A stretch of DNA of 16,865 nucleotides from Candidatus Poribacteria bacterium (GCA_016215705.1 JACRIR010000242.1:1-16865); one strand, 5' to 3'; positions 2,116 to 15,986 are shown, counted from the first letter of the stretch. The notes: generated by a model from the letters alone, not told the origin. A program made the numbers and translations.

Positions 2116-3081
2116 ATGAGGCTGCGGGTCGGGGATTTGTTCGCAGGAGCCGGTCTTTTGAGCGGCGCGTTCACCCGCGCAGGGTTCAAAACTGTTTACG
2201 CAGCGGAGGCCGACCACCGGGCCATCGCTACTTTCAACCTGAACCACGGAAAAGTCGCCGAATGCAGAGACGTGCGACAACCGCGCGATGACGTTCGCTG
2301 TGACATCATAGTGGCGGGTCCTCCTTGTCAGGGCTTCAGTACCCTGGGCAAGAGGGACCGTGCCGACGAACGAAACGTTCTCTCACTCGCGATCGCGCGA
2401 TGGGTTCGGCCCAGCGGGGCGCGAGTGGTAATAGTCGAAAACGTGCCTCAGTTTCTGGAATCAGACCAGTGGCATCGCCTGACGGAGCGCATGAGGCGCC
2501 TCGGATTCGAGTCGCGCGCTTGGGTGCTCGACGCGTTCGATTACGGCGCACCGCAACGGCGGAAGCGTTCCTTCACGGTGTATTCGAAAATCGGGCTACC
2601 AGAACTTCCCAGACCGGTAAAACATAGGATTACGGTTCGTGACGCGTTCGAAGGGCTCGGCCTGAAACCCGATGTTGATGGCATGCACACCGCTCCGACG
2701 CCTTCAAAGCTCGCTTACGAACGCTTTGTAAGAATCCTCAGCGAAGGAAGTCGTTCGGATCTGATGACACGTTCGCCTCATCTGTGTCCGCCTTCGTGGC
2801 GACGGCTAGGACCGGATGTCAGCGACGTGTGGGGAAGAATGCGGTACGACGCGCCTTCCAACACGCTACGGTGTTGTTTCCAGAATCCCTCCAAGGGGCG
2901 CTACATACACCCGGTCGAACACCGCGTTATCACGCTACGCGAAGGGGCTCGATTACAGGGAGTGCCTGATAGCTGGAAGTTCGTCGGAGATAGGACGTCG
3001 GTAGCCCGGCAGATAGGGAACGGCGTGCCAATCCCGCTCGGCTACGCCGTCGCAAAAAGCGTGTCGGAGCTTTTTAGCTGA
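2116..3081 (+). CDS. DNA (cytosine-5-)-methyltransferase of the MORC-type R-M system
   Basis: A 321-residue enzyme, close in length to the smallest C5 methylases such as M.HhaI. Motifs in order: motif I DLFAGAGLLSGAF (7-19, S-adenosylmethionine binding), motif IV GPPCQGFS with the nucleophile Cys71, motif VI ENVPQFL, motif VIII QRRKR, and a C-terminal RQIGNGVP (motif X region). It transfers a methyl group to C5 of cytosine in a target that cannot be read from the sequence; the target-recognition region lies between motifs VIII and IX. It is divergent from the regulator and convergent with the ATPase gene, overlapping its 3' end by 8 bases. The adjacent Vsr-like gene fits a C5 methylase, because deaminated 5-methylcytosine gives T:G mismatches. 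Confidence 0.95.
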   Translation: MRLRVGDLFAGAGLLSGAFTRAGFKTVYAAEADHRAIATFNLNHGKVAECRDVRQPRDDVRCDIIVAGPPCQGFSTLGKRDRADERNVLSLAIARWVRPSGARVVIVENVPQFLESDQWHRLTERMRRLGFESRAWVLDAFDYGAPQRRKRSFTVYSKIGLPELPRPVKHRITVRDAFEGLGLKPDVDGMHTAPTPSKLAYERFVRILSEGSRSDLMTRSPHLCPPSWRRLGPDVSDVWGRMRYDAPSNTLRCCFQNPSKGRYIHPVEHRVITLREGARLQGVPDSWKFVGDRTSVARQIGNGVPIPLGYAVAKSVSELFS

Positions 3082-5245
3082 GCTCCTCGTCAAAACGCTC
3101 CTCTTCTTTCGCCAAGACCTCTATGTAGTCCATATGGAGCGTTTTCGCGCGCTCCAACATGACTGTAAGCGGGATGATCTGCCACGCCTGTGCCGGCGTT
3201 GATTTGTGATACTTGTCGAGCAGCACCATCTCCTCGGTATTGCGCGTCGCATTACCCGGCAGGCTGCCTATAAGGTAGCCGTACACGGTGGCCGTTTTAA
3301 ACTCGTTCTTTAGATAGCGCTCCACCTTCGTCATATAGCCTTCGAGTTGAGTGAGATGGCTGGCGGTTAGAGGGATGTTCGGCGACTTAAGTTCGACCAC
3401 CGTCACCCTTGTCTTCTGAGATCCGTCAGCAAGGACGAACACGAGATCCGGACGCGTGTGGTCCTTGTCTTTCTCAGGGTCGTAATCTTTGGGTTTTTCA
3501 GAATCGATGCCGAGCTCTTTGTCCAACTGCCTTGCAACGTCCCCCATGGGTTTGTCGCTCGCCAGATAGCGCGAGAATTCCGGCTCGATGAGCCAGGGAC
3601 TCTCCTTAAGAAGCTGGTGGAGTTCGCCTTCGAATTTCGCGCTTTTCCACTCGTCCTTCGACCGCTTTTGCAGCTTCTGCAGCGCCAGAATGCCGTTCCT
3701 GCGTCCGCGGTACAGTTTGAGCACATCACTGTGCTCGATCCTAGCCAGCTCGACCAGTTCGTGACCGACGACGGATATGCTTTTCGGATCCTCACCCAGA
3801 TGGGCGAGTTTCACCAGCACTTCGCCCGCGTTCATGGAACGGACCACCAGCGGAGCAACCTCGCGGAACAGCCTGCTCTGTGTGCCGTGACGGGCGGCAA
3901 GCGCTTTAAGCGCCTTTCTTGCCGGTACGCGGGTATTTGTTGAAAGCAAGTCGACCTGGTCCAAGAGAGCTTTGGAGACCGGGTCTTCGTCCATTTCCTG
4001 TTCTGCCTTCTTGTCACGAAACCTGCCGTGTTCCTGCAGGGCGTCCTTCATGATCTGCGTAACCGTGCTGATAAGGGCGTCAACCACCTCGTTGTCGGAC
4101 TTCAGGTCCGTGCGGCTCGTGCTGATGTGGTCTATGTCCTGCCTGTCCAATTCGTCCGCGTGGACCACGCATTCCATGTAGCTCTGGGAATGAAAATTGT
4201 GCATCCCTGTAGGGAGTTCGAACAGCGAGGGTCCGGCGGCAAGACGTTTGTTGCAGTAAATCCTTGCGCCACGCAACCGCGCGGGAAGGCTTCCTTTGAC
4301 ATCCGCAGGCTGTCCCTGCCCGTCGGAATTCGCCGCCTTGTCCTGTTCCTCGCCCTTCCGCGCCCTGAACATCGCGCGGTAGCGTATCGGGTACTTTACG
4401 ACGTCGGCCACATTGACTTCGATCGTGGCGTAACCGTCCTGATCGCATTTGTCGTCAGAAGGGTACTTGAACTCGTACTCCGCGGGCTCTTCCACGATCT
4501 TTTCGCCGTTCAGCTTCACGACGAACGCCTCCCCGAGGACTACGAAGTTCTGAGCGAGCGTGTTGCGCATGGTCGGCTGTTTCGCCTTGATCGCATCGCA
4601 ACGCAGACGGCTCAATACGACCTTGGTGCCGTGCTCGTCTAGCAAAAGGCCTTCGATATATTCGGGCGTAAAGGTCACATCATAGGCCGTAGACTTCTTC
4701 CTGATCTCCTCGTAATCCATCGTGAACTGCGTCGCGTACGTCTCGTTCTTACGTTTTGTCCAGATCGTGATTTTCTCAGCAGTACCGAAGCCAGCCAGTT
4801 TACCCAGCCCCTTTCTGCCCATGACGTATCGAAGGCCGGATTCGGACTTCCCGCCATCGGTTTTGCGACGGTTCCTGTTGACCAGGAGGTACTTGTTTTG
4901 GACTTCCTCCGCGCTCATACCGTGCCCGTTGTCCTGAATAACGATCTCGATACCCTCCGGCAACGGATCCTGGAGCACCGTGAATGTGCCTCGCTTTTCT
5001 TCTTCGACCTCCTTCTTGGCCTGTTCCCGAACAGCCGCACGAGCCTCCTCGATACGGTCGAAGGGGATGTTTATTTCGACAAGCTCGGCGTCGGCGTCGT
5101 ATCCGTTCGCCACGAACTCCACGAGGCTCTTGCCGACGGAGGTGTACATGTTGAGACCGAGCGATTCAAGCATGCCCGTGTCGATACCGAGACGAAGCTC
5201 TTGTGGCTTGGTAGTCGATGCTGCTTGGGTATTGGTCGTGTCCAT
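3074..5245 (-). CDS. GHKL (MutL/MORC-like) ATPase with C-terminal PD-(D/E)XK-like domain
   Basis: 723 residues. The N-terminal GHKL ATPase shows the N-box (EFVANGYDADAE, 43-54), the G1 motif DNGHGM (105-110) and the glycine-rich GRKGLGKLAGFG lid (143-154). The C-terminal part has HQLLKESPWLIEPEF and then RPDLVF with Asp600 and VVELKSPN with Glu618 and Lys620, the D-x17-E-x-K pattern of a PD-(D/E)XK nuclease, followed by QLEGYMTKVERYL as in DUF4263/SduA-type domains. GHKL ATPases of this kind linked to cytosine methylases and Vsr proteins are known as bacterial relatives of MORC ATPases in R-M systems. ATP-driven clamping would gate DNA cleavage. The ATG at 5245 has a GGAGG nine bases upstream. 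It is transcribed after vsr1 with a 16-base gap. The restriction role is inferred. Confidence 0.9.
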   Translation of the reverse strand: MDTTNTQAASTTKPQELRLGIDTGMLESLGLNMYTSVGKSLVEFVANGYDADAELVEINIPFDRIEEARAAVREQAKKEVEEEKRGTFTVLQDPLPEGIEIVIQDNGHGMSAEEVQNKYLLVNRNRRKTDGGKSESGLRYVMGRKGLGKLAGFGTAEKITIWTKRKNETYATQFTMDYEEIRKKSTAYDVTFTPEYIEGLLLDEHGTKVVLSRLRCDAIKAKQPTMRNTLAQNFVVLGEAFVVKLNGEKIVEEPAEYEFKYPSDDKCDQDGYATIEVNVADVVKYPIRYRAMFRARKGEEQDKAANSDGQGQPADVKGSLPARLRGARIYCNKRLAAGPSLFELPTGMHNFHSQSYMECVVHADELDRQDIDHISTSRTDLKSDNEVVDALISTVTQIMKDALQEHGRFRDKKAEQEMDEDPVSKALLDQVDLLSTNTRVPARKALKALAARHGTQSRLFREVAPLVVRSMNAGEVLVKLAHLGEDPKSISVVGHELVELARIEHSDVLKLYRGRRNGILALQKLQKRSKDEWKSAKFEGELHQLLKESPWLIEPEFSRYLASDKPMGDVARQLDKELGIDSEKPKDYDPEKDKDHTRPDLVFVLADGSQKTRVTVVELKSPNIPLTASHLTQLEGYMTKVERYLKNEFKTATVYGYLIGSLPGNATRNTEEMVLLDKYHKSTPAQAWQIIPLTVMLERAKTLHMDYIEVLAKEEERFDEELS

Positions 5246-5261
5246 AAATTACCGCCTCCCT

Positions 5262-5675
5262 TTATTTAGGTTTCTTCCTGACCAACATGCCGATCCTCCG
5301 CACCACGGCGTCGACATCGTCGTATGCCTGGTGTTCCCAGACGCGGAGCACGCGCCATCCCGACCGTCGCAACGCCCTGATATTGCGTCGGTCGCGGCGG
5401 CGGTTCCGCTCGATTTTGGTCTGCCAGTAGGCAGGAAGTGTATGCTTCCAAGCAGGATAGCGAAACCCGTGCCAGAAATCCCCGTCGATGAAGATAGCAA
5501 TGCGGTGTTCTAGGAACGCAATATCTGGCCTGCCGCGCAGACGAGAAACATGGCGACTGTAACGGTAACCTGCCGACGTAAGGGCCTTCATAACCAGCTT
5601 TTCGAGCCGAGTTCCCTGCGGCCGGTTCGCCTGCATGCAGCGCCTGCGCTGCGACAAAGTAAGGCGGTCAGTCAT
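5262..5675 (-). CDS. Vsr-fold endonuclease lacking the zinc site
   Basis: 137 residues with the very-short-patch-repair fold: MxxNRPQGTRLEKLV, then GRPDIAF with Asp51, then FIDGDFWHGF with His69, and NRRRDRRNIRALRRSGWRVLRVWEHQ. Asp51 and His69 match the catalytic residues of E. coli Vsr in number as well as kind. The structural zinc ligands do not: where E. coli Vsr has Cys66, His71, Cys73 and a Cys in the WEC motif, this protein has Asp66, Phe71, Tyr73 and WEH. It is upstream of the ATPase gene in one operon (16-base gap). It may nick T:G mismatches made at the methylase target, or serve as a cutting subunit of the system. The ATG at 5675 has only a distant GAGGG. Confidence 0.9.
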   Translation of the reverse strand: MTDRLTLSQRRRCMQANRPQGTRLEKLVMKALTSAGYRYSRHVSRLRGRPDIAFLEHRIAIFIDGDFWHGFRYPAWKHTLPAYWQTKIERNRRRDRRNIRALRRSGWRVLRVWEHQAYDDVDAVVRRIGMLVRKKPK

Positions 5676-5714
5676 CAGGATTTCGTCCCTCGGCCATTGT
5701 AATGATCGAGGATT

Positions 5715-5735
5715 TCCTTGTCTGGCTCACAAGGA
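5715..5735. promoter_or_regulatory. Inverted repeat upstream of the vsr1-ATPase operon
   Basis: TCCTTGT and ACAAGGA, perfect 7-bp arms around seven bases, 40-60 bases before the vsr1 start. A possible -10 (TACAAT on the minus strand, 5696-5701) lies between. This would suit a dimeric regulator. No regulator is assigned, since the palindrome by dcm1 has a different sequence. Confidence 0.4.
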
Positions 5736-5857
5736 CATTGTCCGATTGGGAATCCATCTTGATTTCTGGTATCGGTAATCGCAACCTACACCCGCAATCA
5801 GCTGAGCCCCGATAACCCGATCCAACAAGCAGGGGAGCACTATGGTCTCATATATGG

Positions 5858-5927
5858 GCGTACAGACGTACGCTACGGCGCGAAATTCCCAGATAGAGTT
5901 TCTTGAATGACTTACCTTATGTAGCGT
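5858..5927. repeat. Nested inverted repeats around the end of vsr2
   Basis: GCGTAC-AGAC-GTACGC (5858-5873) is a 6-bp inverted repeat. ACGCTAC (5870-5876) recurs inverted as GTAGCGT (5921-5927) across the vsr2 stop codon at 5912. Together they may fold the 3' end of the EcoRII-like operon transcript. No T-run follows. The rest of 5676-5911 shows no gene. Confidence 0.3.
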
Positions 5928-6382
5928 AGGTTACTTTCCACGGACTTGCGCGCTCGCCGACGGGACGGCGGCTCCGGTTTGAGAAACCGGCAGATCCTCT
6001 TCGCGAGCGCCACAAAGTCGCGAGTCTGGCATTCCCACACGACGAGCACGTGCCAGCCGCAAGCCCTGAGCGCGCGGATGTTGCGCCGGTCGCGCTTAAC
6101 GTTCCCAGCCCGCTTGTCGCACCAGAATGCGGCGTTGGTCCTGGGTATGACACGCCCTTGTTTGCAGGCGTGCATATGCCAGAAGCAGCCGTGCACGAAT
6201 ATGATTTTTTGCCGCGCTCGGAAAACGAGATCGGGACGTCCCGGCAGTTCCTTTCCATGCAGCCGGTAGCGGTAGCCCATGCTGTGTATCAGCCGGCGCA
6301 CGGCGAGCTCGGGGCCCGTGTCTTTGCCCCGGATTGCCGACATGTTCCGGCGGCGCTGCTCGGGCGTCAGAACATCGGCCAT
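5912..6382 (-). CDS. vsr: Very short patch repair endonuclease (Vsr)
   Basis: 156 residues, colinear with E. coli Vsr. The start MADVLTPEQRRRNMSAIRGKDT is typical. GRPDLVF carries catalytic Asp51, and HGCFWHMHAC carries Cys66, His69, His71 and Cys73 at the E. coli positions; the fourth zinc ligand is Cys118 in VVWEC. It nicks 5' of the mismatched T where deamination of 5-methylcytosine has produced T:G, which starts short-patch repair and protects methylated sites from C-to-T loss. It follows the EcoRII-like endonuclease gene by 6 bases, with GAGG upstream of ATG 6382, so it is the last gene of the second R-M operon. A dcm-vsr pairing is known in E. coli. The C-terminal tail (PSRRRARKSVE) is basic. 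Confidence 0.95.
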   Translation of the reverse strand: MADVLTPEQRRRNMSAIRGKDTGPELAVRRLIHSMGYRYRLHGKELPGRPDLVFRARQKIIFVHGCFWHMHACKQGRVIPRTNAAFWCDKRAGNVKRDRRNIRALRACGWHVLVVWECQTRDFVALAKRICRFLKPEPPSRRRARKSVESNLRYIR

Positions 6383-6388
6383 CCGTCC

Positions 6389-7564
6389 TCACGCGCGAAG
6401 GCGCGCCCGCACTTCACTGATGAAACCCTCGACGGTCAGGATACCTGCGCGGTGGCTCGGCGGGTAATCCGTGTGCAGGTGCTGCGGCACGACGAGATCC
6501 ACGTTCAGCTGCCTCATCTCGTCGAGCTGTGCTGATGAGACACCCTGCTGCAGCGTGAGAATGTGTTTGTGCGTCACGCGCGGCGCCTCGCGCGTGACCT
6601 GGCGCCAGCGGTCCTTGCAGGTCGTCTTCACGCCGAGGACGAAGAGCTTCTCAAGCGGGAAATCCGGATCCTCGTATTCCTTTTTGCCGGGAATCAGCAC
6701 GTCGGGTTTGGTGCCATCGACGTCCACGCGCACATCGAACGGAAGCTTCGCCTCACGGAGCAGATACTCGACGTGGAGCTCGAGCGAGCGCCCAGCGCGC
6801 GCCTTGCGCCGCTGGAGGATGGTCTGCGCCGTCCTGAGGAAGTCGTCCACCGATTTGAATGCACGCAAGACCTTCGGTTCGCACACGCGGCGCTCGACCA
6901 GTCTGAATAATTGGTACTCGGCCTCGACGAACAGCTGAAGCTGTGCGTCGCTCGGCTTCGACACGAACGCATTCACGCAGTCGAGCAGCGCCTGGCGAGC
7001 CTCGCCAGCAAAGCTCGTCGTGGGCGGGAAATCGGTAAGGGCCTTGGAAAACTCGCAGAAATGACGATCGATGCAGTCATCCTCGCCCTCGGGCGATGCG
7101 CCGGCGTCGCGATCGTAGAAGGCCCAGCGCCCTGTCACCTGGACGCCGAGACCGGCCTGCACATCCTCGATGTCGTCCTCGAGATCGAAGACGTACATCA
7201 GGAAACGGTCCATGCGCTCCGGAATCAGAATAAGTAGGCTGCCCACGCGGTCGGCGGTGAGATACGGAAAGTCCCGGCCGAAGTGCGTCATGCGGTACTC
7301 GCTTCGCGTACCGGTGCCGTACCACTTCACCACCGAATCCGTGATGCGACCGTCCTGCACCCAGACGGCCTGAACATGGTGATCGTGATTGACACCTTTC
7401 TGCGGCGGCTGGGGGGTGAAAGCCGCCCACTGCGCCTTCGGCAGATAGTAACCGCACTGGTGTCCGCCAGTCAGACCGACATCGTTCGGGGAAATGAATT
7501 TGAGAACCGCTTTGCCGCAGCGCCCCGCGTCGAGTATCGCCTGGTCACACGCCGGCGAGGGCAC
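6389..7564 (-). CDS. Type IIE restriction endonuclease, EcoRII family
   Basis: 391 residues against about 404 for EcoRII. The N-terminal effector-binding domain includes NDVGLTGGHQCGYYLPK, which matches EcoRII's NDTGATGGHQVGLYIPS region. The catalytic domain includes RKARAGRSLELHVEYLL and VKTTCKDRWRQV. Aligning on these, Asp288, Tyr297, Lys313 and Lys317 have the same spacing as EcoRII residues Asp299, Tyr308, Lys324 and Lys328. The enzyme would cut unmethylated CCWGG-like sites and need two sites; the exact target is inferred from the family. The start is GTG at 7564, which overlaps the methylase stop by 20 bases and has GGGAG about eight bases upstream. Translation is therefore coupled to the methylase and begins after it. 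Active-site residues look intact. Confidence 0.95.
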   Translation of the reverse strand: MPSPACDQAILDAGRCGKAVLKFISPNDVGLTGGHQCGYYLPKAQWAAFTPQPPQKGVNHDHHVQAVWVQDGRITDSVVKWYGTGTRSEYRMTHFGRDFPYLTADRVGSLLILIPERMDRFLMYVFDLEDDIEDVQAGLGVQVTGRWAFYDRDAGASPEGEDDCIDRHFCEFSKALTDFPPTTSFAGEARQALLDCVNAFVSKPSDAQLQLFVEAEYQLFRLVERRVCEPKVLRAFKSVDDFLRTAQTILQRRKARAGRSLELHVEYLLREAKLPFDVRVDVDGTKPDVLIPGKKEYEDPDFPLEKLFVLGVKTTCKDRWRQVTREAPRVTHKHILTLQQGVSSAQLDEMRQLNVDLVVPQHLHTDYPPSHRAGILTVEGFISEVRARLRA

Positions 7565-8801
7565 GGTTCGATCTCCCTTTCACTTTTCCTTTTTCCCCCG
7601 CCCGGCTCGTCACGACCGGCGTCTTAAGTAGGCAGCCGCCACGCATCGCGAGAAGCTGCCAGCCGAGCACGTCTGCGAGCTGGCGCGCAACGGCCTCGGC
7701 CACAGGGGGCACCACGGCGTTACCGAACTGCTTGTAAGCCTGGGTATCTGACACGACGATAGGCAGCCGGTCAGGAAAGCCCATCAGCCGCGCCGCTTCA
7801 CGCGGCGTGAGCCGGCGCGGATTGCGCCGTTTCTGCGGAATCAGGACCTCGGATCCGTCCTTGTAGTAGCGAGCCGAGAGCGTGCGGCTTACGCCATCGA
7901 AGTCGGCCATGCCGAAGCCGAAGCCGTTACCCTTCTCCTTGTGACGCTGCGCGTAGTCCTTGAGGTATGTCCACAGATGCGTGCTCAGCGTGTACTTCGA
8001 GTCTGGCGATTCCTCGAGGATGTCGCGGAAGCGCGGGCGCGGGCTGTCGGGTTCCGACGGGAATACGAATGGCGGATTCTCACCGAATACCCGCACGTCA
8101 AAACCAACAATGAAGACACGCTCGCGATGCTGCGGCACCCAGGCGGCGGCGTCAATGACCTTTGTGAAGATTCGATAGCCCAAATCCTCAAGCACCGAAC
8201 GGATGACCTGCCACGTCCGCCCTCCGTCATGCGACTGGAGGTTTTTCACATTCTCGAGAAGGAACGCCGGCGGACGTTTGTTCTCGAGAATGGTCGAGAC
8301 GTTGAAGAAGAGGTTTCCCTGAGCCGCATCCTTGAAACCATGCGGGCGACCGAGCGCGTTCTTCTTCGACACCCCCGCAATCGAGAACGGCTGACACGGA
8401 AAGCCCGCGACCAGCAGGTCATGATCGGGAATCTCGGCAGGTCTGATCTTCGTGATGTCACCGTGTGGTACCTCACCGAACCAGGCGTAGTAAGTCTTCT
8501 GGCAGTAGGTATCCCATTCCGATGAGAAGACACAACGCCCGCCCGCCGCCTCGACACCAAGACGCAGGCCACCGATGCCGGAGAACAAATCGATGAAACT
8601 GAACGGTATGCCGCCTCCGGTCCGCTGTGCCGGCGGCTGAATGTTGTCGAAGAGCGATGGCTGACTGCTTCCCCTGTGGGCGCCTTCCAGCAGATCCAGC
8701 ACAAATTCCTGCTGGGAGACTCTGCGCTCGCTACACCGCTCGCTGATCCACGTTTTGAGATCGTTCGGGATATCCCGAACCAGAATCGAGTTGGCGGCCA
8801 T
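7545..8801 (-). CDS. Dcm/M.EcoRII-type cytosine-5 methyltransferase with RHH-like N-terminus
   Basis: 418 residues from the ATG at 8801; an upstream TTG (8870) gives a longer frame, but homology-like sequence begins at the ATG, preceded by AAGGA. Motif I FIDLFSGIGGLRLG (69-82), motif IV GFPCQPFS with the nucleophile Cys136, motif VI ENVKNLQSHD, motif VIII PQHRER and motif X QFGNAVV. The stretch HKEKGNGFGFGMADFDGVSRTLSARYYKDG matches the Dcm target-recognition region closely, so CCWGG-type methylation is likely. Residues 1-42 (NSILVRDIPNDLKTWISERC, then SQQEFVLDLLEG) look like a FitA/Arc-type ribbon-helix-helix domain rather than the usual Dcm N-terminus, which suggests self-repression of the operon. 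It is the first gene of the methylase-endonuclease-vsr operon. Confidence 0.95.
   Translation of the reverse strand: MAANSILVRDIPNDLKTWISERCSERRVSQQEFVLDLLEGAHRGSSQPSLFDNIQPPAQRTGGGIPFSFIDLFSGIGGLRLGVEAAGGRCVFSSEWDTYCQKTYYAWFGEVPHGDITKIRPAEIPDHDLLVAGFPCQPFSIAGVSKKNALGRPHGFKDAAQGNLFFNVSTILENKRPPAFLLENVKNLQSHDGGRTWQVIRSVLEDLGYRIFTKVIDAAAWVPQHRERVFIVGFDVRVFGENPPFVFPSEPDSPRPRFRDILEESPDSKYTLSTHLWTYLKDYAQRHKEKGNGFGFGMADFDGVSRTLSARYYKDGSEVLIPQKRRNPRRLTPREAARLMGFPDRLPIVVSDTQAYKQFGNAVVPPVAEAVARQLADVLGWQLLAMRGGCLLKTPVVTSRAGEKGKVKGRSNRALAGV
8763..8780. repeat. Perfect 18-bp palindrome inside the methylase gene
   Basis: GTTCGGGAT is followed directly by ATCCCGAAC. It falls in codons 8-13 of the RHH-like segment, about 21-38 bases inside the gene. 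It may be an operator or an mRNA hairpin near the start codon, or chance. Confidence 0.4.
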
Positions 8802-8823
8802 GTCCTTATTTCTGGGAATTATT

Positions 8824-8843
8824 GATAGCAGAACGATAGCAGA
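8824..8843. promoter_or_regulatory. Two 9-bp direct repeats, 11-bp period, upstream of methylase
   Basis: GATAGCAGA occurs at 8824-8832 and 8835-8843, one helical turn apart. The pair is flanked by GGGAA (8814-8818) and TTCCC (8846-8850) and lies 22-43 bases before the ATG at 8801. Ribbon-helix-helix repressors bind tandem sites spaced by about one turn, so this is a likely operator for the methylase's own N-terminus. Confidence 0.55.
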
Positions 8844-8871
8844 TTTTCCCAACGAATGCACAAGTAGCAAC

Positions 8872-8892: not shown

Positions 8893-9142
8893 CACAGCGC
8901 TGTTCCGCTCGCCCGCCTCGGCTCCGCCTCATTAGGCTTGCTCCACCCCACAACAGCACTCGCAGTTGCACGGAACGATCTCTTGCACCGATGGGGCCGT
9001 TCATCTGGTGAAGGTTGTCACACATCAATGGCAACACAAAGCAAGGTATTGCAGGCATGCGGACGGTCGGGCCATCTTATGGCTTATCCACCCAAATACA
9101 GCAGCGCAGGTGCTCTCTTTATACTGCGAAGCGTCTCGCTCT

Positions 9143-9991
9143 TTATTCCAGATCGCGCTCCGCTTCCTCTGCATCATCTACTTCCGCATAAAGCAGCGTC
9201 ATCCTGTAACCATCGCGCTGCACAAACGTCTGTTCCGCAAGAGAACTCGCGTTCCTAGCATCGGACAGCCACGCATGGGCGCTTATTTCCTCCCAGCCTG
9301 AGCAGGTGTCATCGCCCAGTTCGCTCGTCAGGCTCACCGAGCCTTTCGGCAAAGGCTGTCCCTTGCGAACGTCAAGGAACGGAAAGTCTTCATTGCGAAC
9401 GCCGTACAGCACGCTGCCATTCCGCGAAAACACGACCGCGCAGGGTTCGTCGTGGAGGGCCACGTACTTGCGGGCGCTCGCCTCCCAGCTCGTCTCGTAT
9501 TTTTCGGAAAGCTCGAGGATGTGTTCCATTTCCGGCCCGCCCAGGCGGCGCAGGTCTTTGCGGAAGTAGGTATCGGGCATCAGGATGCCGGCGGAGAAGC
9601 GGTTTGCCTCCGCCTCCATGCGCGCGGCCCTGTCATCGGAAGAGGCGCCGAATTTCCGCATGTCGCCGGCGGTGCAGCGGAACCCGGCGCCGTCGACCGG
9701 GACGTGCCAGGGGTTCAGAAAATGGCCCAGCTCATGGCCGACCGTGAACCGCTGGCGTTGCCGCGGACTCTGCCTGTTGACCAGGATGGTGCCGGAGGAT
9801 TTGTCGGCAAACGTCACGAGCCCGCCTTCGAAGCCGTCGGTCTCCAGCGGTTCGATCCGGTGAATATCCAGCGCCGCAGCGATGTCCTCGATGGGGACGG
9901 GAATGGGCAGATCGGGCATCTGCTTCAGGAGGGCGTGCAGCAGCTTTTCCGGGGTCGTGCAATCCGCGAGCTCCATGCGGTCGAGCTTCAT
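9143..9991 (-). CDS. ImmA/IrrE-family metallopeptidase
   Basis: 282 residues. The zinc metallopeptidase motif HELGH (86-90, in FTVGHELGHFLNP) is followed by EAEANRFSAGILMP, whose Glu (about 128) supplies the third zinc ligand. This is the COG2856 family, whose characterised members (ImmA of ICEBs1, IrrE/PprI of Deinococcus) cleave a partner XRE-type repressor in response to stress such as DNA damage. Start at ATG 9991 after a GGGGGAGAGGGG purine run. The gene follows the XRE gene by 14 bases in the same operon, the usual arrangement for protease and substrate. The long C-terminal region after residue 150 (YETSWEASARKYVALHDEPCAVVFSRNG) is a common extension. Substrate identity is inferred from context. 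A toxin-antitoxin reading is less likely. Confidence 0.9.
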   Translation of the reverse strand: MKLDRMELADCTTPEKLLHALLKQMPDLPIPVPIEDIAAALDIHRIEPLETDGFEGGLVTFADKSSGTILVNRQSPRQRQRFTVGHELGHFLNPWHVPVDGAGFRCTAGDMRKFGASSDDRAARMEAEANRFSAGILMPDTYFRKDLRRLGGPEMEHILELSEKYETSWEASARKYVALHDEPCAVVFSRNGSVLYGVRNEDFPFLDVRKGQPLPKGSVSLTSELGDDTCSGWEEISAHAWLSDARNASSLAEQTFVQRDGYRMTLLYAEVDDAEEAERDLE

Positions 9992-10005
9992 CCCCTCTCC
10001 CCCGG

Positions 10006-10329
10006 TTACCGGCGTTTCTTTTTCTTCATCGACTCGATGATCATCTGCAGGGTGCCCCGGTCCTGTTCGGACAGCTTCTTTATCGAACGGTACATGACCA
10101 GCAGGCCCTCCTCGTCGGAGTCCTTGTCCGGGGTTTCCCCGGTCAGGTGCGACACGCTCACGCTGAAGTGCTCGGCCAGCCGGGTGAGCAGGTCCAGGGA
10201 CGGATTGCTGCTTTTCCCGGCTTCGATCTCCCAGATGTGCGCCTTGGAGGCCCCCACGGCGTTCGCCACGTCCTGGAGCGATTCGCCCTGCTTAAGCCGC
10301 AGCTGCCTGAGCTTGGAGCCGATCGACAT
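10006..10329 (-). CDS. XRE-family HTH repressor, probable ImmA substrate
   Basis: 107 residues from the ATG at 10329, chosen because AGGG lies about nine bases upstream and because the HTH begins there (MSIGSKLRQLRLKQGESLQDVANAVGAS). Residues 7-62 form a standard Cro/CI helix-turn-helix, with SKAHIWEIEAGKSSNPSLDLL as recognition and following helices. The tail is charged and ends in MKKKKRR. The gene is divergent from tnsAB with about 155 bases between starts. An inverted repeat GTTCG-N6-CGAAC lies in its 5' leader. The role proposed is repression of itself and of tnsAB, with release by ImmA cleavage. That is inference from the known ImmR/ImmA arrangement. Confidence 0.88.
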   Translation of the reverse strand: MSIGSKLRQLRLKQGESLQDVANAVGASKAHIWEIEAGKSSNPSLDLLTRLAEHFSVSVSHLTGETPDKDSDEEGLLVMYRSIKKLSEQDRGTLQMIIESMKKKKRR

Positions 10330-10348
10330 CGTGACTGCCCTTCCCGTA

Positions 10349-10373
10349 GTTCGGTGAATCGAACGAAATTGTA
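10349..10373 (-). promoter_or_regulatory. XRE operator candidate and -10 box
   Basis: GTTCG (10349-10353) and CGAAC (10360-10364) form an inverted repeat around six bases. On the minus strand TACAAT (10373 to 10368) is a good -10; no convincing -35 was found. The placement suits autorepression. Confidence 0.4.
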
Positions 10374-10382
10374 GCACCTGCC

Positions 10383-10411
10383 TTGACAGTCCGCATCGTC
10401 TGATATATCAT
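10383..10411 (+). promoter_or_regulatory. Sigma-70 promoter of the tnsAB-tnsC-tniQ operon
   Basis: TTGACA (10383-10388), 17 bases, TATCAT (10406-10411): a near-consensus promoter. Transcription would start near 10418, only seven bases before the ATG at 10425. This favours the ATG at 10485, which has AGGC/GGCG just upstream, as the real tnsAB start. Confidence 0.7.
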
Positions 10412-10484
10412 TACGTTTAATACGATGTTGGCATACGACCCAAACGGGGCTCCGAGGCCCACTGTTTTTGCGAGGCAGGCGAAC

Positions 10485-13157
10485 ATGAGCAGCAAACGAG
10501 ATGATCTGGAATCGCTCTATGAGGGCCTGGGCATACCGCCCGAGGGGCGCGCGCAGATCGAGCGCGTCCGCAGCTCGCCGCCCTCGCGGACCGTCCAAAG
10601 CGGCAGAGGGAACGTCTGCGTCCGCTACCCCAGCCGGAAGATGGGGCACACCATCCAGGCGGAGAGCCATACGCTCGAGCTGCCCGGCATCTACCAGATG
10701 GAACACGACCGGGACGTTCTCGAGTACTACGATCAGCCGGCGGCGATCAAGCTGCGCTACCTCGCGAAATCCGGCCGGAAAACCGGCGCCTTCCACACGC
10801 CGGACTTCTTCGTCATCCGCCGGGACGGGGCGGGATGGGAGGAGTGGAAACACGAAAGCGAGCTTGTGCTGCTGGCCGCACAGCAGCCCGGGAGATATCA
10901 GAAAGATCCTGACGGGAAATGGCGCTGCCCGCCGGGCGAAGAGCATGCCGCCGCGTACGGCCTCCAGTACGCGATCCGAACCGACAAGTCGATCAACTGG
11001 AATACCTACCAGAACCTGATCTTTCTCGAGGATTACTTCGCCAGCGAGGCGCCCGCGCCTGAAGCATCGTTTGTCGAAGCCGTCCAGGCCAAGCTGCGCG
11101 AGCAGCCGGGGATCGCGCTGGCCGATTTGACCCGGGAGAACACCGGATTCGCGCCGGACAGCGTCTTCACCCTCATCGCGCGGAGGCTCATTTACTGCGA
11201 CCTCGCCGTCGCGCAGTTGCACGACCCGGAGAGGGCGCGGCTCTACCTCGATGAAACCGCGGGCAGCGCCCACAAGGCGGCTTCAGAATCGAACCGGGAG
11301 GACACGCGACCGCCCATCGCGACGATTTCGCTTCGTCCCGGACAGGCGTTCGTCTGGGATGAAAAGCACTGGACCATTCTCAACGCCGGCGCCACGAAAA
11401 TATCCGCGCAGGACGACGCCGGCGGCCGTATCGAACTGGATCAGGAAACATTCACGCAACTCGTCCTGGAAGGGCGGATCGCCGGCGATCCCTCGCCGGC
11501 GGCGGACGACGCCTCTAAAACGCATGAAACCCTGGCCAAGGCGCGGCCGGAAGACCTGGAGCTCGCGAACACTCGCTACGAGTTGATACGTCCCCTGCTC
11601 GACGGCGGCAAGCCCGTTTCGGACACCGTGACGGAGCGCACTCTCTACACCTATCTGAAGCAGTGGCGTGCGGCGGAAGAAAGCGTTGGTTGCGGGTACA
11701 TCGGCCTGCTTCCCGGGCATGCCCACAAGGGCAACCGGAAACCCCGGCTCCCGCAGGAATCCTTGCGGATCCTCGACGAGGTCATCGACGAGTATTACGA
11801 AAGCAAACGGGCCACGTCGATGTGGGTCGCATATGCCCGCTACTTAAATATATGCGAGAAACACGGTACGACGCCGGCAAGCTACAAAACGTTCACGGTA
11901 CACGTGGGGTCCAGGCCCATGCATGAACAGATTCGGAAACGCGAAGGTCATAAACGCGCCTACGCGCACGGGGAGTTCTACTGGCAGCTGGACACCCACA
12001 TCCCGCGACACGGCACGAGGCCGTTTGAGATCGCGCACATAGACCATACCGAGTTGCAGCTGGAGGTGGTCTCGTCGAAAACAGGAAAATCCCTGGGACG
12101 GCCGTGGCTTACCCTGATGATCGATGCCTACACCCGGGCCGTGCTGGGTGTCGTCCTGTCCTTCGAACCGCCCAGCTACCGCTCCTGCATGATGGTCATC
12201 CGGGACTGCGTGCGTCGGTATGGCCGGCTGCCCAAGATCCTGGTCGTGGACCGCGGAGCCGAGTTCGGGAGCGTGTATTTCCAGACATTGCTCGCGCGCT
12301 TTCAGGTGATCCTAAAAATGCGCCCGGCCTCGATGCCCCGGTTCGGCAACGTGATCGAACGGCTGTTCGGCGCCACGCAATCCCAGCTCATCGACAACCT
12401 GCTTGGAAACACCAAAATCACGCGCCATGTGCGCCAGATGACGCCCGAGGTGAACCCGAAGCGCCATGCGGTGTGGACGCTCGAGAAATTCGACGTCTTG
12501 TTTGGCGTCTGGCTTGCCGAGTTCTACGAAACCAACGCCCATCCGGCGCTCGGGGAATCCCCCAGGGAGGCGATGACGCGCGGGCTGCGGCAAACCGGCC
12601 TGCGCGAGTTCAAGCTCATTTCCTACGACGAAAACTTCCGGCTCTTGACCAGCCCCACCACGCCGCGCGGCGTGGCCCGCGTACATCCCGCGCGCGGCAT
12701 CAAGATCAACTATCTGTACTACTGGTCAACGTCTTTCCGGAACAAGCGCTTCGCGCGGGGGAAGGTCGATGTCCCGGTTCGCTACGACGCCTACAACGCC
12801 GGCATCGCGTATGCCCTGATCGATTCCTGCTGGGTTGCCTGCCACTCGGAAAGGTACACCGAATTCAAGGGGCGCACCGAGCGCGAGATCCGGATGGCCT
12901 CCGCGGAACTGAGGCAGCAGCAGCGTACCCACGGGCGCCAGCGCACGGTCACGGCCAGGGCGTTGGCGGCGTTTCTGCTGTCCGCGGAAGCCGAGGAAAA
13001 ATTCGCCGTCGAGCGGCAGCGTGAGGCGGAAACGAAAATTGTAAGGGAAAAATACGATTTTCCATCGAAGGCTGCGGAGCGCCCGGCGCTGCCGCCTGAG
13101 CGGGACGTCGAGACAGAGAGGCCGGTCACACAACCCAAACTGCTGGAGGTGTTCTGA
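10485..13157 (+). CDS. TnsA-TnsB fusion transposase
   Basis: 890 residues from ATG 10485. Residues 50-125 are TnsA-like: Glu60 in GHTIQAESHTLELPG, QPAAIKLRY, HTPDFFV with Asp107, and GWEEWKHE with Glu120 and Lys122, the E...D...(E/Q)xK nuclease set of Tn7 TnsA that cuts the non-transferred strands. The middle is TnsB-like with an HTH region and the DDE integrase core: IAHIDHTE (Asp520), LVVDRGAEF (Asp589) and GNVIERLFG (Glu625), spaced 68 and 35. A C-terminal basic/coiled segment (QRQREAETKIVREKYDF) may contact TnsC. Having both nucleases predicts cut-and-paste transposition. TnsAB fusions are known in some Tn7-like lineages, but most Tn7-type elements encode two proteins. The stop overlaps the tnsC start (TGATG). 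The start could be ATG 10425. Confidence 0.92.
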   Translation: MSSKRDDLESLYEGLGIPPEGRAQIERVRSSPPSRTVQSGRGNVCVRYPSRKMGHTIQAESHTLELPGIYQMEHDRDVLEYYDQPAAIKLRYLAKSGRKTGAFHTPDFFVIRRDGAGWEEWKHESELVLLAAQQPGRYQKDPDGKWRCPPGEEHAAAYGLQYAIRTDKSINWNTYQNLIFLEDYFASEAPAPEASFVEAVQAKLREQPGIALADLTRENTGFAPDSVFTLIARRLIYCDLAVAQLHDPERARLYLDETAGSAHKAASESNREDTRPPIATISLRPGQAFVWDEKHWTILNAGATKISAQDDAGGRIELDQETFTQLVLEGRIAGDPSPAADDASKTHETLAKARPEDLELANTRYELIRPLLDGGKPVSDTVTERTLYTYLKQWRAAEESVGCGYIGLLPGHAHKGNRKPRLPQESLRILDEVIDEYYESKRATSMWVAYARYLNICEKHGTTPASYKTFTVHVGSRPMHEQIRKREGHKRAYAHGEFYWQLDTHIPRHGTRPFEIAHIDHTELQLEVVSSKTGKSLGRPWLTLMIDAYTRAVLGVVLSFEPPSYRSCMMVIRDCVRRYGRLPKILVVDRGAEFGSVYFQTLLARFQVILKMRPASMPRFGNVIERLFGATQSQLIDNLLGNTKITRHVRQMTPEVNPKRHAVWTLEKFDVLFGVWLAEFYETNAHPALGESPREAMTRGLRQTGLREFKLISYDENFRLLTSPTTPRGVARVHPARGIKINYLYYWSTSFRNKRFARGKVDVPVRYDAYNAGIAYALIDSCWVACHSERYTEFKGRTEREIRMASAELRQQQRTHGRQRTVTARALAAFLLSAEAEEKFAVERQREAETKIVREKYDFPSKAAERPALPPERDVETERPVTQPKLLEVF

Positions 13158-14290
13158 TGATTCGTGACAAAAACAAGGTCGACGCCGACCTACAACAGAA
13201 ATTGGCTGCCTTCCGCAAGATCACCGTTAAGCACAAGCGCCTCATGGAGGCGCGCGAACTGCTGTTGCCCTACCTGCTCGATGAGGCCGAGGAGGGGGTC
13301 ATCTGCGTCGTCGGACCCACGGGCGCTGGGAAAACAACTCTGCTTAAACACTGCATCGCCGATGTGCTGGCGCACGAGGCGGCTGAAATGGAACGCGACC
13401 GCAGCTATATCCCGATCGCATACGTCGAGGCGCGTGCGCCGGAGCGGGGGAATTTCGAGTGGGCCGCTTTCTACCGTGACTGCCTTATCGCGCTGCACGA
13501 GCCGCTGGTGGACCGAAAAATCATGTCGAAGGTCGAGTTTGGCAAGCTCTCGCTGCCGGAATATGGCCCTTCGAAGTCCCGCTCCGTCACGCAGTATCGA
13601 ATCGCGCTTGATAACGCGCTGAAACATCGCCGAACCAAGATTCTGCTGATCGACGAAGGCCAAACCCTGTTAAAAGTCTCGTCCGCGAGGCTCGCGATCG
13701 ACCAGATGGATACGATCAAATCGCGCGCTTCGCTGACAGGCGTTAAACATGCGCTGATAGGCACCTATGAGCTGCTTAACACCGGCGATCTCAGCGGACA
13801 GCTGAGCCGGCGCCGCAGAAACATCCACCTGCCGCGCTACAATTGCGATGACCCCGATGACGTCGCTGAATTTAGCAGCATCATTCACACATTCCAGTCG
13901 AACCTTCCGATCCCGTGCAACGTCGATCTGACAGAATCCTTCGATTTCGTGTATGCAAAATCGGTAGGTTGTGCCGGCGTCCTGAAGACCTGGCTGGATG
14001 TGACTGAGAACTGGGCTGCGAACCAGAACCTTTCCAAGATCACTTTGAAAAACCTCGAGAAAAAGGCCCTGCCCAACCGCGATTTGATGAGAATGCTGAC
14101 CGAAATTCGTGAAGGAGAAAAACAATTCTCTGGGCCGTCCGACGACGAATTGATGGCCAAACTGGGACTATCCACGGCAAGCCACGATAAACCAAGTGAG
14201 GAAACAGCATCTGCCGCCAAAAAAGCCAACAACCGGCCGGGGCAGCGGCGTCCAACCCGCGACCCCGTGGGGGATGTCGCCGTTGCTTAA
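13157..14290 (+). CDS. tnsC: TnsC-like AAA+ ATPase
   Basis: 377 residues. Walker A GPTGAGKTT (53-61) and Walker B KILLIDEGQTLL with Asp166-Glu167, followed by the LIGTYELL region where the sensor residue is expected. TnsC-type ATPases assemble on DNA, carry the target signal from TniQ/TnsD to the transposase and give target immunity. The start codon overlaps the tnsAB stop by one base, with GGAGG about seven bases upstream, so expression is coupled. The C-terminal tail after about residue 320 (GPSDDELMAKLGLST and then a charged stretch) may bind TniQ. It is smaller than Tn7 TnsC (about 555 residues), as in TniB and CAST-like proteins. Confidence 0.92.
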   Translation: MIRDKNKVDADLQQKLAAFRKITVKHKRLMEARELLLPYLLDEAEEGVICVVGPTGAGKTTLLKHCIADVLAHEAAEMERDRSYIPIAYVEARAPERGNFEWAAFYRDCLIALHEPLVDRKIMSKVEFGKLSLPEYGPSKSRSVTQYRIALDNALKHRRTKILLIDEGQTLLKVSSARLAIDQMDTIKSRASLTGVKHALIGTYELLNTGDLSGQLSRRRRNIHLPRYNCDDPDDVAEFSSIIHTFQSNLPIPCNVDLTESFDFVYAKSVGCAGVLKTWLDVTENWAANQNLSKITLKNLEKKALPNRDLMRMLTEIREGEKQFSGPSDDELMAKLGLSTASHDKPSEETASAAKKANNRPGQRRPTRDPVGDVAVA

Positions 14291-15650
14291 GCATTTGATC
14301 GAAGTCACAAACGACGACATGATCGGGCAGGTATCTCTGCCACCGCGCACGCCGTATTACGGCTTGCCGCCAATCGGGATGGGGACATGGGCTGCGGAGA
14401 GCACGACAAGCTATGTGGCACGGCTGGCAGCGAATCACTGCATAAGCGTCATTGACCTCGTGACTAATGCCCTTGACGTCAGAACTCGCCGTGACGGGAC
14501 GCACTGGAAGCTGTTTCCAAGGCAAGGGGAGACATTCAAATTAAATGGCGTCAGTACGCTAGCGATGGAATGGGGCCACAAATTAGCAAACCTTACGCTT
14601 CAGCCTTCTCTATCAAAGACCAATTTGGCATCCCTGAGAGGAATACTGCCTAGCACCAGATTGGTAAGAAATACGCGCGCCTGGTGCCACCTCTGCCTTT
14701 GCGAAATGCAAGAAAACGCGGTGTATGAACCCCTTCTTTGGTCAATGCACCATGCGGTGGTCTGCCCGGAACATCACGTGCCACTTTCTACGATTTGTCC
14801 ATCATGTAAAGCGCCAAATACGGCAGCCCTGAGCCAACGCTATACGCTTGGGCACTGCACGCGATGTGGTAGCTGGCTTGGCATATCAAACGCTGAGGGA
14901 AAAGGCCCGCCTACGCAATGGGAAGAGTGGACCACCTTACAAATGAAATCACTGATCTCAGTAATTTCATCGAGTGAGAACGCGCCCAGTATCTCGGTCG
15001 CATATGACAACCTTGAGATACTAATCCTTACGGTTGGCAATGGACGTATGACGCGGTTTGCACAGGAAATTGACACAGATAAATCTACGTGCTCAATGTG
15101 GCTTAATAGGAAAAATTTTCCAACCCTTGACTACTGCTTTCGAATCAGCCTGGTTTCAGGAATAGACGTCGGCAAATTATTGTGTTCAGTGGTATCTCCA
15201 AGTGAGATTGATCGAAGTACCTGGGGGCGGGATGGCCAGCCACAATGGGTGAAACGACCCGTACGTCGAAAGATCGACTGGGAAAGTGTAAAAAAGAACT
15301 TTGAGGAAATCTGCCAAAACAATGAAACACCCTCACCCGGCCTGCGACGTGTCGCAAAGCGATTAGAAGTTGACGGTCGTCTTCTCAAAGAACGATTTCC
15401 TGACTTATGCGGCAGACTAGCACGAAGAAATACCATTTTTTGGGAGAAACGACCTGCACAGAGACATGAAGCGCTGAAGAAGCGCATCCGTCGGATGGTG
15501 ATCAAAATCGCCAAGAACGGTTATCGGCCAACCAGGCGTCGGGTAGCACGCGCGCTCGACCTAACTAGTGGAGATATCACAGACAAGCGTCTTCAAAAAA
15601 TTTGGCGGGACAGTGTGGCCAAGCTGCAAGCTTCGCAAGTATTCTGCTGA
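14274..15650 (+). CDS. tniQ: TniQ/TnsD-like target selector
   Basis: 458 residues if the ATG at 14274 is used (17-base overlap with tnsC); GTG 14196 would give 484. Neither has a clear ribosome-binding site. The opening LPPIGMGTWAAESTTSYVARLA is the TniQ signature. A zinc-ribbon region follows: CHLC (138-141), CPEH, CPSC and CTRC. The long second half has HTH-like stretches (RFAQEIDTDKSTCSMWLNRK and RPTRRRVARALDLTSGDI). This length and tail fit TnsD-type proteins that bind a fixed chromosomal site, rather than the short TniQ of CRISPR-associated elements; no cas genes are present. The neighbouring tRNA-Ile2 is the natural candidate target. AT content is higher in the second half than in tnsAB/tnsC. 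Confidence 0.9.
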   Translation: MSPLLKHLIEVTNDDMIGQVSLPPRTPYYGLPPIGMGTWAAESTTSYVARLAANHCISVIDLVTNALDVRTRRDGTHWKLFPRQGETFKLNGVSTLAMEWGHKLANLTLQPSLSKTNLASLRGILPSTRLVRNTRAWCHLCLCEMQENAVYEPLLWSMHHAVVCPEHHVPLSTICPSCKAPNTAALSQRYTLGHCTRCGSWLGISNAEGKGPPTQWEEWTTLQMKSLISVISSSENAPSISVAYDNLEILILTVGNGRMTRFAQEIDTDKSTCSMWLNRKNFPTLDYCFRISLVSGIDVGKLLCSVVSPSEIDRSTWGRDGQPQWVKRPVRRKIDWESVKKNFEEICQNNETPSPGLRRVAKRLEVDGRLLKERFPDLCGRLARRNTIFWEKRPAQRHEALKKRIRRMVIKIAKNGYRPTRRRVARALDLTSGDITDKRLQKIWRDSVAKLQASQVFC

Positions 15651-15804: not shown

Positions 15805-15851
15805 TTTGAACAATAAGTCTTCAGTTGCCGAGTTTGAACAATAAAGCTTCA
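15805..15851 (+). repeat. Two direct repeats, probable TnsB binding sites
   Basis: TTTGAACAATAA occurs exactly at 15805-15816 and 15833-15844, 28 bases apart; extended to 19 bases, 17 of 19 match (both end CTTCA). The core ACAATAA(A)GTCTT resembles the TnsB site of Tn7 ends (ACAATAAAGTCTT), compared from memory. Position just after tniQ and before core genes fits a transposon end. The direct orientation is opposite to that of Tn7 sites relative to a right terminus, which is unexplained. Confidence 0.65.
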
Positions 15852-15855
15852 TTTA

Positions 15856-15875
15856 CTGAAAACTTATGGTCACAA
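15856..15875 (-). repeat. Degenerate inverted copy at the candidate transposon terminus
   Basis: The plus-strand segment CTGAAAACTTATGGTCACAA matches the reverse complement of the first direct repeat (15805-15824) at 15 of 20 positions. It holds the ACA (15872-15874) that would be the 3' terminus of a Tn7-type end. ACTGAAA here (15855-15861) is also inverted as TTTCAGT at 15876-15882. The exact end needs an empty-site comparison. Confidence 0.45.

Positions 15876-15909: not shown

Positions 15910-15986
<77 letters not shown>

Follow-up and report, generated by a model that had tools for sequence, protein, structure and literature searches.

A CapH-CapP-type regulatory cassette fronts the tnsAB transposase gene of a Tn7-like transposon in Candidatus Poribacteria

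Here, we analyze a 16,865-nucleotide stretch of DNA from a Candidatus Poribacteria bacterium (GCA_016215705.1 JACRIR010000242.1:1-16865), hereafter the window, in which a repressor-protease gene pair of the CapH-CapP type is encoded head to head with tnsAB, the transposase gene of a Tn7-like transposon. The window is a single contig (C189) from an assembly of 5.5 Mb that is split into 270 contigs. The Tn7-like transposition core fills its right half; leftward of this, the minus strand encodes the XRE repressor, the M78 protease, and a cargo with many restriction genes. CapH-CapP is known as an immune controller that regulates cyclic oligonucleotide-based antiphage signaling system (CBASS), Bub, and other immune operons (Lau et al. 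2022, as cited in PMC13373217), and CapP is activated by single-stranded DNA (ssDNA) and cuts CapH (PMC13373217; PMC10904395). That a CapH-CapP cassette fronts tnsAB is well supported, and we regard the arrangement as real and as a new combination of two known kinds. Moreover, we consider it probable, judging from the sequence, that the cassette represses tnsAB of this TnsD-homing transposon until ssDNA-triggered cleavage releases transposition. The timing of movement of Tn7-like transposons is poorly known, and the control that has been described mostly concerns the choice of target or the guide RNA. The locus is a concrete, testable case of an ssDNA sensor of immune operons directly gating a transposase, and it is the control of a transposase by CapH-CapP that would be new. 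The features on which the argument rests are as follows.

9143-9991, minus strand: capP, M78 metallopeptidase gene; 282 aa, with HELGH and a downstream zinc-site Glu
10006-10329, minus strand: capH, XRE/HTH (helix-turn-helix) repressor gene; 107 aa from the ATG at 10329, with PADLOC, Pfam, and PDB matches
10349-10365, minus strand: predicted operator b, CGTTCGATTCACCGAAC on the minus strand, directly downstream of the probable capH -10
10368-10373, minus strand: probable capH -10, TACAAT, placed by inspection
10383-10411, plus strand: tnsAB promoter, TTGACA-N17-TATCAT, 11 of 12 consensus matches
10398-10414, minus strand: predicted operator a, GTAATGATATATCAGAC on the minus strand, covering the tnsAB -10
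10485-13157, plus strand: tnsAB, TnsA-TnsB fusion transposase gene; 890 aa from the ATG at 10485, Pfam TnsA-like_N and rve

The repressor and protease resemble CapH and CapP

A sequence-only reading of the window had described an XRE gene and a HELGH protease gene as a minus-strand operon divergent from tnsAB, and all of those parts are present. The repressor is encoded just upstream of the protease, and capP begins 14 bp past capH. Translation of capH most likely starts at the ATG at 10329, because that start aligned with 11 relatives; the open reading frame extends to 10006-10377 if a GTG is used, and this longer start at 10377 is unlikely. The repressor matched the PADLOC capH model (1.1e-24) and Pfam HTH_31 (8.4e-10), found its best PDB match in 7t5u, and was 41-51% identical to plasmid CapH homologues. 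The protease matched the PADLOC capP model (3.9e-58, covering residues 12-269) and Pfam Peptidase_M78 (1.7e-13), and its closest solved protein was CapP itself (PDB 7t5t, 3.1e-12). It was 37-43% identical to nine relatives, in all of which H86, E87, H90, and E126 are invariant. By its family model the repressor is assigned to the CapH family, and the protease is assigned to the CapP family with what appear to be intact zinc-site residues. The nearest known pair, as judged by both family models, is CapH-CapP. We note that the source genome has nine M78 matches in all, and that a second, more distant XRE-M78 pair lies elsewhere in it (L095, G000:C110:16353-17084; E value of 2e-23 to the CapP alignment).

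The pair had instead been likened to ImmR-ImmA of ICEBs1, and that parentage fails on the PADLOC and PDB matches, which point to CapH-CapP. An ICEBs1-type switch, in which an ImmR-type repressor is the target of ImmA and the input comes through RecA or cell signalling, would have the same two-gene repressor-protease order and the same M78 peptidase family. The CapP and CapH models nevertheless matched best, with no match to a family model of ImmR or ImmA. The operator layout corresponds to that of regions between the capH-capP pair (capHP) and immune operons, and the window showed no RapI/PhrI-like genes. We conclude that a switch of this type is very improbable. As nearest relative, ICEBs1 ImmR-ImmA was ruled out by the family-model and PDB matches, not by direct pairwise comparison with the ICEBs1 proteins. 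ICEBs1 and TnSmu1 ImmR-ImmA (PMC10233336) are alike to the proposed system in that an XRE repressor and an M78 protease control the mobility of a mobile element with DNA damage as input. They control integrative conjugative elements, however, and belong to a different subfamily, whereas the element here is a DDE Tn7-like transposon.

The promoter and predicted operators between capH and tnsAB

The near-consensus tnsAB promoter of the sequence-only reading is present, and it is the sole sigma-70-like site within 9000-10600, where 0.3 would be expected. The first gene past it is tnsAB, with no further sigma-70-like site between. The ATG at 10485 is the more likely tnsAB start, rather than that at 10425, because its methionine aligns with the starts of relatives. 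In the presumed leader between promoter and ATG lies a terminator-like hairpin with a T run (10447-10470), which may mean nothing, as chance alone would give about 1.5 such sites over the scanned stretch.

The shared region had also been said to hold an inverted repeat, GTTCG-N6-CGAAC, and it does (GTTCGGTGAATCGAAC at 10349-10364, within operator b). Taken alone the repeat is weak, as arms of 5 bp are frequent. It gains significance from the recurrence of a near-identical sequence at the corresponding place in the capHP region of a relative, and from the score of a paired-operator model. The window repeat (GTTCGATTCACCGAAC on the minus strand) and its counterpart in a Sphingobium capHP-CBASS region (GTTCGATTGACCGAAC) are identical at 15 of 16 bases, and the recognition-helix stretch SKAHIWE is identical in the window and Sphingobium CapH proteins. 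The repeat was rejected as the tnsAB operator, since it sits at the capH start region and it is operator a, a second site overlooked in the sequence-only reading, that covers the tnsAB -10. With respect to operator b, the probable capH -10 is placed as TATATT/TATAAC are in relatives.

The operator model, 17 bp wide, was built from nine sites in five relatives with the window excluded. It found a same-strand pair of sites in the window at 10398 and 10349, with a spacing of 49 bp compared with 46-50 bp in relatives. The score of the pair, 20.5, was reached by 0 of 5000 dinucleotide shuffles (maximum 15.5) and by 0 of 818 other 156-bp tiles of the window (maximum 6.3), and other tnsAB upstream regions (n = 13) scored from -2.8 to -11.5. 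When single sites were ranked among 33,698 positions, operator b came first and operator a eighth; after the model was iterated on more relatives, the ranks were fourth and eighth. Held-out near-duplicates of the training set scored high, as expected, and several distant CapH regions have their own candidate pairs of sites with a similar spacing. Two further sets of matches are probably due to chance: the third-best operator-like match in the window (7566-7582), which is directly upstream of the start of an EcoRII-like gene, and 27 exact matches to the operator b pattern in viral contigs, none of which had a CapH or CapP homologue at its locus.

The operators bear on whether the pair is ordinary cargo. 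Were it a toxin-antitoxin-like pair, or one that controls the restriction-modification genes beside it, it would act on its own promoter only and its adjacency to tnsAB would be coincidental. ImmA-family genes are indeed counted as toxin-antitoxin cargo in 295 Tn7-like transposons (PMC8649781), and in the window a methylase gene follows on the same strand after a gap that holds no promoter-like site. Operator a, however, lies over the tnsAB -10 in the orientation and spacing found over the divergent promoter of relatives, and known CapH-CapP pairs control an adjacent divergent operon. Moreover, tests of the related TnSmu1 ImmR-ImmA did not support a toxin-antitoxin role (PMC10233336). Ordinary cargo thus seems an improbable explanation to us.

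A layout shared with capHP-immune regions

The nearest relatives of capHP that were found are plasmid-borne and mainly alphaproteobacterial; 135 plasmid records match, 31 of them over at least 80% of the protein. In most of the neighbourhoods read, capHP is divergent from an immune or immune-like operon, be it a nucleotidyltransferase-led CBASS-type operon, multiubiquitin/ThiF genes, or TIR with DUF2188. The exceptions were two Acinetobacter plasmids and one small Pseudosulfitobacter plasmid, which have hypothetical or DUF2188 genes, and two degraded or unclear contexts; one further record was unannotated. When anchored on the divergent -35, the relatives have a common layout: TTGAC, a spacer of 17-18 bp, operator a over the spacer and the divergent -10 (TAtnnT), the capH -10, and operator b. 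The -35/N17/-10 register of the window promoter is found in most capHP relatives and there drives the divergent gene.

The window shows this layout in front of tnsAB, and other tnsAB upstream regions are without it. Compared with known CapH-CapP systems, the family-model and PDB matches, the two-gene operon, the divergent target gene, the 46-50-bp operator spacing, and the promoter register are the same. The difference lies in the divergent gene, which is an immune effector operon in known pairs and the transposase gene tnsAB here. The immune-operon context that is usual for CapH-CapP is therefore absent from the window, which bears on the context and not on what the pair is. The identity of the genes, the layout of the cassette, and the conservation of the operators are apparent from the sequence itself. 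Thus, the whole regulatory cassette, promoter included, appears to front tnsAB, and the promoter that drives immune operons in relatives appears to drive tnsAB.

How the cassette may control transposition

Because the tnsAB promoter is the sole sigma-70-like site and operator a lies over its -10, the simplest reading is that CapH would repress both tnsAB and capH and that ssDNA-activated CapP would release both. The proposed cassette consists of capH, capP, the capH promoter, the divergent promoter, and the two operators, all ahead of tnsAB. CapH bound to operator a would keep tnsAB off, along with the closely packed tnsC and tnsD, as the position of the operator suggests. CapH bound to operator b, at its own start region, would limit its own level. 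When ssDNA builds up owing to DNA damage, phage replication, or perhaps incoming DNA, CapP would be activated and would cut CapH, by analogy with the known family. Both tnsAB and capH would then be derepressed, and cut-and-paste transposition could occur. Increased transposition on release of CapH is a step that we infer at a further remove, because Tn7 cores also need recognition of target and ends. The earlier proposal of a cleavable XRE repressor that controls tnsAB and couples it to DNA stress is strengthened by the paired operators, the conserved spacing, and the placement of one operator over the tnsAB -10, and only its ImmR-ImmA ancestry falls away.

Why a transposase might be put under an ssDNA-sensing immune controller is a more tentative matter. 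We speculate, at somewhat less than an even chance, that phage attack or DNA damage would thereby move the element and its defence cargo elsewhere. If the ssDNA sensor does gate the transposase, CapH-CapP would be a general plug-in controller, the mobility of defence islands would be tied to phage or DNA-damage stress, and the cassette would provide a natural inducible promoter for cores of the Tn7 and CRISPR-associated transposon (CAST) type.

The chief rival has the same molecular wiring and differs in history and benefit. In it, capHP arrived as cargo with an immune operon that has since been lost, a deletion fused the promoter of that operon to tnsAB, and the link between CapH and tnsAB is an accidental, unselected relic. 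Such a history would fit with an immune operon being the usual partner of the cassette, with the defence genes that make up the remaining cargo (cytosine methylases, EcoRII-like and BbrUII/HgiDII-like nucleases, and Vsr), and with there being one case only among related elements. Both genes, the promoter, and both operators nonetheless look intact, and the spacing is kept at 49 bp. Moreover, divergent XRE genes occupy the same slot at two other tnsAB loci (L227 and L229), which suggests a used regulatory slot. A relic is in our view unlikely, with the reservation that this estimate overlaps with the one for control by CapH-CapP; tnsAB would be under CapH in either case.

Several points weigh against control of tnsAB by a CapH-CapP cassette as a selected arrangement. 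At the level of sequence, a relic would look identical. The pairing is also a single instance. No capHP was found at 19 related tnsAB loci of genome contigs, at 27 tnsAB matches in 18 of 400 Chloroflexota genomes, or beside tnsAB in 292 cyanobacterial genomes, 386 broad genomes, and one viral contig; several of the surveyed loci have little upstream DNA and some were fetched twice, such that the number with readable upstream DNA is smaller. Operator a is a weaker site than operator b, and the operator model, which comes from close relatives of the window CapH, fits distant CapH regions poorly. Finally, the contig lacks the left end of the transposon. As the assembly is fragmented and the element incomplete, a chimeric join between capH and tnsAB is possible in principle.

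Regulators at other tnsAB loci and in other transposons

The search for an XRE-ImmA pair beside tnsA or tnsAB of other Tn7-like elements, as the sequence-only reading had suggested, gave no second case in the surveyed genomes. An XRE gene of another kind, lacking a protease partner, is divergent from tnsAB at L227 (309-1361, minus strand) and L229 (1069-1368, minus strand), and the one in L229 is followed by a tniQ gene. The window is not unique in having a divergent repressor at this position, but in this sample it alone has the protease pair. This slot ahead of tnsAB may generally accommodate repressors. The literature searched, the scope of which did not extend to subscription papers, yielded no repressor-protease pair in front of tns genes. 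Within that literature, the statement that such a module is not usual in descriptions of Tn7-type elements holds, with ImmA known as cargo and other regulators described without a protease.

Regulators of Tn7-like elements are known. CvkR represses cas12k and tnsB in type V-K CAST (PMC9938897), and CvkR and Arc of those elements are likewise small repressors divergent from a Tn7-like core gene. They are, however, MerR or ribbon-helix-helix proteins for which no protease partner or DNA-damage input is described. RtaC/RtbC (VpxR) are Xre regulators of type I-F3 CAST (PMC11406308, PMC12150760) and are alike in being Xre repressors of Tn7-like elements, with proposed zygotic induction. In contrast to the pair in the window, they are described as acting on guide-RNA (atypical CRISPR) expression and without a protease partner. 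A looser parallel is provided by toxin-antitoxin pairs built into Tn3-family transposition modules (PMC7157771).

The transposition core, cargo, and tRNA-side end

The remaining features of the window are listed below.

2116-8870: restriction-rich cargo; two cytosine methylases, an EcoRII-like nuclease, a BbrUII/HgiDII-like GHKL nuclease, and two different Vsr endonucleases
13157-14290, plus strand: tnsC, AAA+ ATPase gene; PDB 8fcu TnsC (3.2e-70), Pfam AAA_22 and TniB
14196-15650, plus strand: tnsD/tniQ, target selector gene; Pfam TniQ (2.8e-16), PDB 8v32 TnsD (5.9e-43)
15805-15874, plus strand: tRNA-proximal transposon end; two 27-bp TnsB-site-like repeats (15805-15831 and 15833-15859), repeat family D12
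15910-15986, minus strand: tRNA-Met(CAT), presumed homing site, found by ARAGORN, beside rpoD

The tnsA, tnsB, tnsC, and tniQ/tnsD genes are in order and intact, as expected of a Tn7-like element. The closest solved protein to TnsAB was PDB 9bw1_M (4.6e-247), and conserved acidic residues are present in it (D520, D589, and E625, with D107 and E120 in the TnsA part). TnsAB, TnsC, and TnsD best match solved proteins (9bw1, 8fcu, and 8v32) that we take to be those of PmcCAST, a type I-B2 CAST, and the core looks intact and related to that type. Insertion next to a tRNA is a further likeness to PmcCAST. Unlike in PmcCAST, no Cascade or other CRISPR genes and no second TniQ were found among the contig proteins searched, in an element whose left part is missing and without a dedicated array search.

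The contig opens within what resembles the C-terminal end of an IS3-type transposase (1-124), which may be the reason that assembly did not recover the left end of the transposon. That end was sought across the genome assembly of the source, where the pattern matched at background level only. The 27-bp repeats of the right end have no other good copy in the genome. The source phylum is rare, with three genomes in the comparison set. No empty site was obtained from its two other members, in which the matches to rpoD and tRNA-Met are not neighbours. The probable terminal ACA was placed by inspection at 15874, and the transposon end is 35 nt past the 3' end of tRNA-Met. TnsD homing of the related CyCAST leads to insertion 30-33 nt downstream of a tRNA (PMC10293859), and the distance in the window is in keeping with this.

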